Shown here one piece after another: positions 6,787 to 8,887 of a stretch of DNA of 13,555 bases. The first letter of the stretch is position 1. Each line of letters opens with the position of its first letter. The notes under the pieces were generated by a model. The model worked only from the letters and a program-made list of their open reading frames with translations, did not search any database and was not told the origin of the DNA. The position numbers and the translations under genes were made by a program. This DNA comes from Betaproteobacteria bacterium (GTDB lineage: Bacteria > Pseudomonadota > Gammaproteobacteria > Burkholderiales > Gallionellaceae), in assembly GCA_028871775.1 (NCBI GenBank), contig JAGWMH010000024.1, positions 1-13,555 on the forward strand, given 5' to 3'.

Positions 6787-8058
6787 ATGGACGCGGTACA
6801 ACAAGGTGCCAGTCAAGTGGTCTGCCAAACCCTGGACGGGCGCAATCTGAACCTGGCATTGAGCGCATTTCTGCAGGCTACACCGGGGCTGATGCCGCAA
6901 CAGCGCGCGGCATTGCAGGATTTGAGCTATGGCACGTTGCGTTTCTACGGCCAGTTGACGCGTGTGCTGGAACAACTGCTGCACAAGCCGGTGCAGGACT
7001 TGCAATTGCGCTGCCTGCTGCTGGTTGCGTTGTATCAACTGCAATACAGCAAAGCCGCGCCCCATGCGGTGGTGGATCATGCCGTGCGCGCTGCGCGCAA
7101 GCGCAATGCGGCGGCAAGCGGGCTGGTGAATGCGGTGCTGCGCAATTTCCTGCGCAACCGGGATGCACTGCTCGCCGTTGCCGCCGGCAGCGAAGAAGGC
7201 CGCTATTCCTATCCGCGATGGTGGATAGGCGCAGTCAGGGCACAATATGGCGAGCGGGCGGAAGCTATCCTGTTGGCCGGCAACCAGCATCCGCCGATGA
7301 CGCTGCGCGTGAATCGCCGCCGCACAACGCCTGCCGATTATCTGGCGCTGCTTGCGCAGCACGACATCCGGGCCAGCGTGATCGGGCCGGATGCCGTGTT
7401 ATTGCAGCATCCCATGGCGGTGGACAAGCTGCCGGGCTTCTTCGATGGTCTGGTTTCGGTGCAGGATGCCGGAGCGCAATATGCAGCGCACCTGCTGGAT
7501 GTGCATGACGGCATGCGTGTGCTGGACGCCTGCGCGGCGCCCGGCGGCAAGAGCGCACACCTGCTGGAACTGGCGCAACTCGACTTGCTGGCGCTGGACA
7601 AGGATGCGCAACGTCTGGAACAGCTGCGCGAGAACATGCAGCGCCTGCAGTTGCACGCGCGGTTACAGGTTGGCGATGCGGCGCAGCCCGCTGACTGGTG
7701 GGACGGCCAGCCGTTTCAGCGCATTCTCGCCGATGTGCCCTGCTCCGCCTCAGGCGTGGTGCGCCGCCATCCCGACATTAAATGGCTGCGCCGCCCCGAA
7801 GACATGGATGGGTTCGCGCAACAGCAGGCGCAAATTCTTGCCGCATTGTGGCGGCTGCTGGCAAGTGATGGTAAATTGCTTTATGCAACCTGTTCCATTT
7901 TTGCGCGGGAGAACCGACAAGTCATCAGTGAATTCCTGCAACAGCATGATGACGCCCGGTCTGTGCCGCTGCCCGCGCCTAACCTGAATGAAGGCCAATT
8001 TTTGCCCGATGACCAGCACGACGGCTTCTTTTATGCGCTGCTGCACAAACATGCGTAA
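6787..8058 (+). CDS. rsmB: 16S rRNA (cytosine-967-C5)-methyltransferase RsmB
   Basis: RsmB (Sun/Fmu) methylates C967 of 16S rRNA using S-adenosylmethionine. The 423-aa protein has an N-terminal NusB-like RNA-binding domain (about 5-135) and a Rossmann methyltransferase domain. That domain contains the SAM loop DACAAPGGK (247-255), motif IV DVPCSASG with Cys319, and motif VI YATCSIF with the catalytic Cys369. Both cysteines of the RNA m5C mechanism are present. I chose the ATG at 6787, one base after the fmt stop, because the frame's upstream extension lies inside fmt. No Shine-Dalgarno is obvious, which suits coupled translation. It ends FFYALLHKHA at 8058; a structured non-coding element follows. 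Confidence 0.96.
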   Translation: MDAVQQGASQVVCQTLDGRNLNLALSAFLQATPGLMPQQRAALQDLSYGTLRFYGQLTRVLEQLLHKPVQDLQLRCLLLVALYQLQYSKAAPHAVVDHAVRAARKRNAAASGLVNAVLRNFLRNRDALLAVAAGSEEGRYSYPRWWIGAVRAQYGERAEAILLAGNQHPPMTLRVNRRRTTPADYLALLAQHDIRASVIGPDAVLLQHPMAVDKLPGFFDGLVSVQDAGAQYAAHLLDVHDGMRVLDACAAPGGKSAHLLELAQLDLLALDKDAQRLEQLRENMQRLQLHARLQVGDAAQPADWWDGQPFQRILADVPCSASGVVRRHPDIKWLRRPEDMDGFAQQQAQILAALWRLLASDGKLLYATCSIFARENRQVISEFLQQHDDARSVPLPAPNLNEGQFLPDDQHDGFFYALLHKHA

Positions 8059-8144
8059 CTGGCTGCGGAAGGGTCGCTGCCTGCGCCAAGACCGCCCGAA
8101 GGGCGAGCGTCTGATGAAACTACTAGCCAATCGACTAGGCTGGC

Positions 8145-8176
8145 AAAAAACGCCAACCAAGTCGCTGGTTATGGCG
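8145..8176 (-). terminator. Intrinsic-terminator-like hairpin, minus strand
   Basis: Read on the minus strand, the 9-bp hairpin CGCC..AACCA/TGGTT..GGCG (8176-8151, 2-nt bulge, 6-nt loop) is followed directly by six T residues (8150-8145). That is the classical Rho-independent layout. It faces against rsmB, so it would end either an antisense RNA from the element or stray transcription from the right. No minus-strand promoter is evident. Confidence 0.45.
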
Positions 8177-8244
8177 GCGGTGCAAATTCCGTCCAGTCTT
8201 CGGCTGGGAACGGATTTGCCTGCCTTGTGCGCCCCTTTACGGGG
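8176..8244. repeat. Structured module A
   Basis: This first copy of the repeated module begins GGCGGTGCAAATTCCG. Its main stem pairs GCAAAT (8182-8187) with ATTTGC (8214-8219), CCGT with ACGG and CCAG with CTGG, and closes on a TTCG tetraloop at 8199-8202 flanked by C and G, a very stable RNA cap. GATTTGCCT and CTTGT follow, then a CCCC/GGGG hairpin (8232-8235 with 8241-8244). Confidence 0.6.
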
Positions 8245-8265
8245 GGTGGCAGCGGGGCGCCCACT

Positions 8266-8336
8266 GGCGGTGTCAATTCTGCATCGAGCTTGCTCGATAG
8301 CAGATTGCCTAACTTTGTTGTACCTCTTGCGGGTAC
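8266..8336. repeat. Structured module B
   Basis: This second copy begins GGCGGTGTCAATTCTG, identical to module A at 13 of 16 positions over this opening. Its stem pairs CAA, TCTGC and ATCGAGC with GCTCGAT, GCAGA and TTG (8274-8307, loop TT). GATTGCCT and CTTTGT follow, then a GTACC/GGTAC hairpin (8320-8324 with 8332-8336). The order of parts matches module A although the stem bases mostly differ. Confidence 0.6.
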
Positions 8337-8344
8337 TGCGCCCC

Positions 8345-8887
8345 ATGGCCGTATTGGCGGTAATGTGGATGGGCATCTCTGTGGCATGCGCCGAAGGTAT
8401 TGCAATGCGCAAGGCGGAGGCGCATTTTTCCGACGGCAGTTATCAGCTTTCCGCCGACTTTGATATCAGTTTCAATTTCGTGGTCGAGCAGGCGCTGACG
8501 CAAGGGGTACCGCTGTATTTCATCAACGAGTTCACCCTGACCCGCCCCCGCTGGTACTGGATGGATGAGGTGGTTGCGAAAAGTGAACAGACCATCAAGC
8601 TGTCTTACAACAGCTTGACGCGCCAATACCGTATTACGCGTGGCTCCCTGTTCCAGAATTTTGCCAGCATCGATGAAGCCTTGAATTCCATTAAACACCA
8701 GTCTGCGTCCATTCAGGAAGATCAGCTCAAGAAGAAGGATGTCAACCATATTGCATCGGTCCGCATGCATCTGGACGTGACGCAATTGCCCAAACCGTTG
8801 CAGGTCAGCGCCCTGACCAATAACGATTGGAACCTGGATTCCGACTGGTATCGCTGGATCGTGCGCCCCGATGCGGCAGCGCACTAA
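8345..8887 (+). CDS. Secreted DUF4390 domain protein
   Basis: This is a predicted exported protein of unknown function. The mature part (AEGIAMRKAEAHF..., with the family segment GVPLYFINEFTLTRPRWYW and a DWYRW stretch near the C-terminus) fits DUF4390, a family usually located next to NtrY-type kinase genes in betaproteobacteria, as it is here. From the ATG at 8345 the product is 180 aa with a short signal sequence ending VACA. Start choice is uncertain. There is no Shine-Dalgarno, and the frame is open back through the hairpin element and into rsmB. A TTG at 8327 would add MRVLRP and give a better Arg-containing signal n-region; an ATG at 8114 would make 257 aa but translate the repeat element. 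The stop is 13 bp before the kinase GTG start, so it is probably cotranscribed with the two-component genes. A role as periplasmic partner of the kinase is only an inference. Confidence 0.8.
   Translation: MAVLAVMWMGISVACAEGIAMRKAEAHFSDGSYQLSADFDISFNFVVEQALTQGVPLYFINEFTLTRPRWYWMDEVVAKSEQTIKLSYNSLTRQYRITRGSLFQNFASIDEALNSIKHQSASIQEDQLKKKDVNHIASVRMHLDVTQLPKPLQVSALTNNDWNLDSDWYRWIVRPDAAAH

Follow-up and report, generated by a model that had tools for sequence, protein, structure and literature searches.

Two studies describe Rickettsia palindromic elements (RPEs) as dispersed palindromic repeats, many of which lie in frame in unrelated genes and add a peptide to the encoded protein; they are about 150 bp long, or shorter in the case of the CGTC-tagged RPE-4 and RPE-6 of R. 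conorii (PMC10969869, PMC3733652). One of these sources adds that in-frame mobile palindromes are known from Rickettsia and intragenic REPs from several other bacteria, and that the search for a dedicated transposase of the CGTC-tagged ones found none (PMC3733652). REP/BIME elements are cut at CT by TnpA_REP, and in several species a number of them lie within genes (PMC8266576, PMC3733652); MITEs are described in a review as small non-autonomous mobile elements (PMC10969869).

We analysed a 13,555-nucleotide stretch of DNA from a member of the Gallionellaceae (the whole of which we call the window), in which a cluster of hairpins follows rsmB at the start of a gene for a DUF4390 protein. Gallionellaceae are free-living oxidisers of iron and nitrite. 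Our preferred reading, which we hold to be highly probable, is that the cluster consists of nested mobile palindromes at the DUF4390 start and that the key element, which we call A, is a protein-coding mobile palindrome working like an RPE. Direct observations on A cover its dispersal and nesting, its exact ends and empty sites, the covariation of its stem, its in-frame copies within conserved genes and its presence or absence among homologs. Among the open-licence papers searched, we recognised no description of A.

Judged by its behaviour, A is closest to RPEs and to the intragenic REPs of other bacteria. Like RPEs, it is a dispersed palindrome that occurs in frame inside unrelated conserved genes (17 of 40 ORFs; 19 of 22 frames kept), and it is set apart from their published description by its length of 60 nt, the lack of a CGTC tag, a CT target rule, its occurrence in Gallionellaceae, the copies of A that lie inside A and its entry into other palindromes. 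With REP/BIME elements and RAYT (the GTAG and CGTC super-families), A shares short imperfect hairpins, a high copy number, the CT site and the occurrence of copies within genes, whereas neither a GTAG nor a CGTC tag is conserved in it, 1 of 91 Y1/RAYT loci has a copy of A nearby and its copy number is unrelated to PF01797. Unlike MITEs, A is a single hairpin without terminal inverted repeats (its ends are GATG.../...TTAT) and without target duplication. A can also be likened to the IS110 family with bridge RNA (IS621), which has a CT core and REP-like targets; the ends of A, however, do not both bear that core (CT on the left, AT on the right), and PF01548 was missing in 9 of 15 A-bearing genomes.

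The hairpin cluster is a nested stack of palindromic elements

The stretch at 8059–8344 is situated between the rsmB stop codon (8056–8058) and the DUF4390 domain. The original prediction counted at least six inverted repeats in 250 bp here; all six stretches do fold as short hairpins, but perfect short inverted repeats (arms of at least 6, loop of 3–14) are not in excess, with 1 found against a shuffle mean of 0.75 and 553 out of 1,000 shuffles at or above the observed count. A separate repeat search of the window listed no perfect inverted repeats in the hairpin region, and the structure of 8059–8344 is made up of imperfect hairpins. The unusual degree of structure that had been predicted was borne out against shuffles of the same composition: the 286-nt region folded better than all 200 dinucleotide shuffles on both strands, with z scores of −3.60 on the plus strand and −4.82 on the minus strand. 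One of the proposed hairpins, at 8151–8176, proved to be a local alternative; covariation backs a hairpin at 8124–8171 within 8113–8172.

Short palindromic mobile elements, nested in one another, make up the cluster; a single structured RNA and an ordinary spacer are both wrong descriptions of it. Its parts are a mosaic host repeat, H, that holds two hairpin inserts of 50–51 nt (C and D) and the 60-nt element A, all described here on the plus strand. The first part of H (8059–8112) bears a CGCCC-GAA-GGGCG hairpin and terminates with the CT that A targets; it is orthologous in L041 and L046, and its copies in L138, L135, L447, L444 and L261 continue without A (GTCT/GGCGGCG, the slash marking the joint). 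Element A follows at 8113–8172, with an 11-nt leader, GATGAAACTAC, and the covarying hairpin at 8124–8171. The second part of H (GGCGGCG, 8173–8179) is joined directly to 8059–8112 in A-free copies. Insert C (8180–8229, end ambiguous by 1 nt), a 50–51 nt hairpin of a D-like type, has a 93% copy in L137, and H lacks C at the equivalent point in L135 and L138, the two loci that also show the third part of H (GCAGCGGGGCGCCC...GGCG, 8230–8269). Insert D, a 51-nt hairpin at 8269–8319 with an end likewise ambiguous by 1 nt, has a precise empty site in L041 and copies at 94–98% identity in L136 (= L036) and at 87–89% in L372 and L043. The last part of H (GTACCTCTTGCGGGTACTGCG, 8320–8340) is the 3' arm of the palindrome split by D. 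Thus A interrupts H after ...GCGTCT, and C and D each do so after GGCG.

Firm evidence on how the locus differs among relatives comes from DNA alignment with three of them. In L041, whose RsmB is 90% identical, H, A and C are present and exactly 51 nt are missing at D. In L046, A, C and D are all absent. In L043, a D-type insert is present, and A and C are missing along with the bulk of the first part of H.

One contig outside the window also carried D-type inserts. In L136 (positions 1100–1880; G032 contig 80), a RAYT gene lies between pairs of GTAG-type repeats, and inserts of the window's D type lie inside these pairs. We considered D as a substrate of this RAYT and withdrew the idea because the D copies sit inside the GTAG-type pairs next to the gene.

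An open frame runs through the array into DUF4390

The ORF list gives the DUF4390 gene as 8051–8887 on the plus strand (278 aa), with a Pfam DUF4390 match at E 2.4e-47. Its ATG at 8051, which reads ATGCGT, overlaps the rsmB stop codon at 8056–8058, and the frame from this ATG stays open across the entire repeat array into DUF4390. The repeats occupy the part of the gene that precedes the hydrophobic core of the signal peptide (MAVLAVMWMGISVACA). This core begins at residue 99, and the protein read from 8051 would have 98 residues ahead of MAVLAV. In L049 and L052, a start at or near the place equivalent to 8051 leads to a short signal-peptide-like start; L041, L043 and L046 have in-frame starts at the equivalent place and open, longer versions, as in the window. 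ATG 8051 is probably the original DUF4390 start, with an internal start at TTG 8327 or ATG 8345 equally possible, and the array may be coding sequence of the DUF4390 start. Openness of this frame is weak evidence when taken alone, because the minus strand is likewise open through the array (ORF 7750–8412).

The cluster had originally been described as an intergenic interruption of a packed operon. The gap is indeed longer than usual, with a landmark distance between rsmB and DUF4390 of 333 nt in the window against 42–60 nt in 34 of 59 related loci and larger values in 20 of 59, figures that serve as a guide only, the DUF4390 query having been out of frame and five gaps having come out impossibly negative; but with the frame open from 8051 it is not clearly intergenic. 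The original prediction did not include the in-frame position of the repeats in what is probably coding DNA, nor the nesting of several kinds of element. In-frame mobile palindromes are a warning that gene starts and annotation can be confused.

Four further junctions (L042, L045, L063 and L087) contained heptad-type repeats, (CTGTCYT)n, where the signal peptide of DUF4390 should have its hydrophobic core, and some of them had a complementary heptad repeat immediately upstream. The DUF4390 signal peptide at these loci may be made of slippage-prone or mobile repeats.

Element A is dispersed through the family and inserts precisely

A search of the source genome and its relatives found 8110–8173 dispersed in the former and H, C and D recurring in the latter. 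The 2.04-Mb source genome yielded 38 matches to A with an E value no higher than 1, although two of these are probably halves of a single copy. Within the Gallionellaceae, A occurred in 140 of 158 genomes, the source genome included, with many of the per-genome counts being lower bounds because scoring stopped near 34 in each genome; the dispersed palindromic repeat that had been proposed therefore holds for A, both on these counts and on the empty sites found here and elsewhere. The three one-contig genomes contained 29, 24 and 35 matches (88 in 9.35 Mb, or 9.4 copies per Mb); one of them, G332, is 99% complete and has 29 copies. Outside the family set, A was found in 19 out of 300 genomes of an order sample by a DNA search that scored three candidates per genome and in 5 out of 369 genomes of a class sample, the source genome being counted in both. 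There were no matches among 72,556 plasmid records or 50,697 phage records. The genus g9 accounted for 11 of the 18 A-free family genomes and also has four A-rich members (G403, G406, G407 and G414), which could reflect a recent gain.

We aligned 45 ungapped copies from several genera over exactly 60 columns. The consensus comprises the leader GATGAAACWAC and a hairpin, TAGCCA-UU-CGACU-A-[7 bp]-loop-[7 bp]-A-AGUCG-C-UGGUUA, followed by U. Standard pairs filled 94.8% of the 810 pair cells of the stem, and two-sided changes occurred in 12 of 18 pairs and in 74 cells, where shuffles averaged 17.2. None of 500 shuffles equalled the alignment in paired cells, in two-sided changes (counted as pairs or as cells) or in covariation score, whereas 32 of 500 equalled it in the number of extra pair types; the number of A sequences in these counts is not the number of independent events.

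The dinucleotide immediately 5' of A was CT in 107 and TT in 7 of 120 distinct flanked copies, and the length of A was 60 nt in 108, 54 nt in 6, 59 nt in 5 and 57 nt in 1. When the flanks were joined and the resulting 18-mers sought in the fetched DNA, the joins along the exact-removal diagonal were seen for 0, 0, 31, 23, 18, 6 and 3 of the 120 copies, whereas the 42 non-diagonal joins gave 2 matches in total. Because empty-site 18-mers are nearly confined to exact-removal joins, insertion of A is precise and leaves no target duplication: exactly the element is added, and no bases are duplicated or lost. Host repeats free of A include ATTCCGGCCT/GCGCCGGAAT, CCCTGAGCCT/GTCGAAGGGT and GGCGAGGACT/GTCTGAGCGC, as well as H itself, which reads GTCT/GGCGGCG in L138, L135, L444 and L447. 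With its sharp ends, simple target rule, dozens of copies per genome and natural presence/absence pairs, A makes the question of mobility testable.

A strong stem spanning the insertion point was present at 30 of 104 CT insertion sites against 203 of 2,400 control CT sites, with equal medians (p = 0.50), and a hairpin with the joint in its loop and a score of at least 14 was present at 21 of 104 target sites against 74 of 2,400 controls. We rejected the idea that A always enters hairpin loops, which only this tail of sites fits.

Two sets of A copies stood out. Those at L420–L427 possibly form a second subfamily, in which the leader GCTTTGCA replaces GATGAAACWAC and the targets differ. At L286, L287 and L424, a large palindromic repeat (...GGCGAGGACTGTCTGAGCGCG...) surrounds A copies; it occurs in several genomes of the family, twice within a few kilobases in G390 and G332. 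No larger, autonomous copy of A was noticed among the copies seen.

Search for the enzyme that moves A

In the account that we propose, short palindromic mobile elements would have piled up where the DUF4390 gene begins and encodes its signal peptide. A enters 3' of CT, sometimes of TT, often in or beside other hairpins and repeats, and would travel as a single strand folded on itself (or as a hairpin), with cutting and joining after CT. In genes, its 60 nt (54 in some copies) would add about 20 residues in tolerant loops. A may be largely selfish, presumably with no function at DUF4390. As to the mover, we give a little less than an even chance to an enzyme that cuts and joins A after CT as a folded single strand, RAYT being one candidate for it. 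Somewhat more doubtful is a bolder reading, in which A would stand as a self-contained kind of mobile, coding hairpin that has machinery of its own (not Y1/RAYT, IS110 or reverse transcriptase), targeting palindromes and repeats 3' of CT and repeatedly adding about 20 residues to essential enzymes family-wide.

We searched genomes for domains of three candidate movers. The A-rich, one-contig genome G332 had no Y1/RAYT, IS110 or reverse-transcriptase domains. IS110 was rejected with PF01548 missing in 9 of 15 A-bearing genomes (G002, G332, G414, G028, G023, G030, G007, G403 and G406), and reverse transcriptase because 15 of the 20 genomes searched lacked it, among them 12 of the 15 A-bearing ones, including G332 and the source genome. 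A domain missing from a draft genome may reflect an assembly gap; G332 is a single contig at 99% completeness.

We consider it unlikely that A is a REP-type element moved by RAYT (TnpA_REP), an HUH enzyme that would cut single-stranded DNA at CT on both sides of the hairpin and rejoin it elsewhere. TnpA_REP cuts single-stranded REP DNA at CT 5' or 3' of the hairpin, according to one report, and the CT insertion rule of A, here a preference for the insertion point alone, agrees with that cut site (PMC8266576). An imperfect, bulged hairpin, the lack of target duplication and the presence of PF01797 in 43 of 60 relatives also fit. The ends of A do not: GTAG is not conserved at the 5' foot of its hairpin, which is mostly CTAC or CAAC, and its right end is TTAT rather than CT. 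Nor does its distribution, since A lay near just one of the 91 Y1/RAYT loci (L352, about 1.5 kb away; 0 of 51 for L189–L238 plus L136, and 1 of 40 for L335–L359 plus L438–L452), where about 2–3 would be expected by chance in their 286 kb at the density of the three one-contig genomes. PF01797 was missing from 8 of 47 A-rich genomes, including G332 (three of the eight are under 90% complete and five at least 92%), and present in 13 of 14 A-free genomes tested, and its rank correlation with A copy number was −0.03 across 73 genomes. In the source genome, the sole PF01797 match (L219; G000 contig 221, 1678–2031) has a stop codon inside the matched stretch and is possibly a broken Y1/RAYT gene.

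Orientation relative to replication bears on the same question. Across the three one-contig genomes, 23 copies were co-oriented with replication against 15 that were not (p = 0.26), with GC skew taken at 20 places per genome, matches of at least 65 bits, one G448 copy near the terminus omitted and a noisy G448 profile; G332 alone gave 11 to 2. We accordingly dropped lagging-strand insertion of A. The absence of an overall strand preference counts against single-strand transposition, which predicts one, and hence also against movement by RAYT.

It is quite improbable that A does not move by itself but entered a few host palindromes once and was then carried as those repeats spread or converted. 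Three identical copies of A at one point of one host repeat in G446, after ...ACCGGCCT, are what such carriage would produce. Against it, at least eight repeat types, distinguished by eye, carry A after a CT, and A also occurs within A itself, nested at CT/AG in L020, L116 and L181; one hairpin variant occurs in two different host repeats of the source genome (L006 and L008); and exact 20-nt empty sites were located for 21 of 120 copies.

Copies of A lie in frame inside conserved genes

Returning to A as a mobile palindrome that can be coding, we scanned with Pfam 40 ORFs holding A, which come from 52 copies inside ORFs among 102. In 17 of them, A lay within or between the domains of one protein; of the other 23, 10 had a family with A before or after the domain and 13 had no family. 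These ORFs were chosen for having A in an open frame, and interrupted genes may therefore be under-counted; the frame test described below, on 106 copies, involved no such choice. The genes with an internal A were purL (L277), mfd (L279), tilS (L183), kdsB (L184, named after its cytidylyltransferase domain), prmC (two cases, L159 and L273), cysS (two cases, L141 and L162), alr (L165), ftsQ (L301), pdxA (L253), hsdM (L256) and those for an AcrB-type pump (L250), a sugar transporter (L262), an aminotransferase (L148), a diaminopimelate/ornithine-type decarboxylase (L259) and a fructosamine kinase (L305). Five of the 17 come from the source genome (L277, L279, L273, L184 and L183). A greedy ORF classification placed 52 of 102 copies inside ORFs, 37 between them and 13 partially inside, against 835, 93 and 92 of 1,020 controls; because GC-rich DNA has long spurious ORFs this classification is crude, and we relied on the Pfam subset instead.

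Comparison with solved structures located the A-bearing inserts of enzymes at short connections of the homologs. Counting the host palindrome as well as A, the inserts amounted to 62 residues in CysRS (330–391) against 8 in the homolog, 32 in PrmC (120–151) against 3, 49 in Alr (179–227) against 10 and 37 in PurL (492–528) against 3.

Two sense frames and one antisense frame of the A consensus contain no stop codon. The first sense frame reads D-E-T-T-S-H-S-T-R-L..K-N-A-S-Q-V-A-G-Y; the second, which is in phase with DUF4390 in the window, reads M-K-L-L-A-I-R-L-G-W-Q-K-T-P-A-K-S-L-V; and the antisense frame reads I-T-S-D-L-A...Q-P-S-R-M-A-S-S-F-I. With a length that is a multiple of three and these stop-free frames, A is able to sit in genes and be translated. 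In the frame test, we joined the flanks of the 106 copies and read all six frames, requiring a host frame that runs without a stop for 120 codons or more to either side of the joint. This requirement left 22 copies, of which 19 keep the host frame open when A is present and none shifts it, although 3 were closed by a stop in A, which speaks against an in-frame coding role. Keeping 19 of 22 frames open has a binomial p of 4e-4 against one half, a rough chance value, and 18 of the 19 open copies use one of the three stop-free frames.

These frames support translation through A, because a skipped or removed A would not need to keep the frame or avoid stops. From the reading frames we infer, with support that falls short of proof, that A is translated through as about 20 extra residues and not removed. 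The contrary idea, that A in genes is skipped or removed like an intron or like the mitochondrial byp elements, would fit the occurrence of mobile hairpins in essential genes, but the retention of frames with no shift, nearly always in a stop-free frame of A, makes it very improbable.

A conserved cis-acting structured RNA (a leader or regulator) of the rsmB–DUF4390 transcript, the reading for which the original prediction had extended the transcript to ntrYX and pointed to Rfam and covariation, fits the low folding energy on both strands and the strong stem covariation, but it is scarcely credible: the window had no Rfam match over the gathering cut-off, the array is absent or different at this locus in relatives (a short stretch in 34 of 59 related loci, as a guide only, and unrelated sequence in most relatives inspected), the covariation belongs to the dispersed A and not to the rsmB–DUF4390 locus, A sits at dozens of unrelated loci, in genes and in both orientations, and the empty sites in L041, L043 and L046 largely refute it.

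The product of prmC offers a natural experiment. Among the best 120 of 7,999 scored PrmC homologs, 25, including that of the source genome, carried the A peptide pattern at one interdomain linker and 95 did not. The linker measured 11 residues in 20 of 115 measurable homologs and up to 71 in others, and the long linkers contained the A peptide plus other, partly palindrome-derived, peptides. AlphaFold2 modelled PrmC (55 rows) with a mean pLDDT of 87; the linker (about 121–160) was predicted as coil at pLDDT 41–59 between domains mostly above 90. Low-pLDDT coil between confident domains locates the insert in a flexible linker, so that the A peptide of PrmC, according to the model, sits in a flexible, disordered linker. 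Interdomain linkers (in PrmC, CysS and Alr), and perhaps signal peptides, may thus lengthen through stacked mobile palindromes.

The PurL of the source genome (L277) contained two separate insertions, the A peptide and, elsewhere, the residues VRPEPVEG...HPSTSSGRT, which by inference correspond to a TGAGCCTGTCGAAGG-type repeat.
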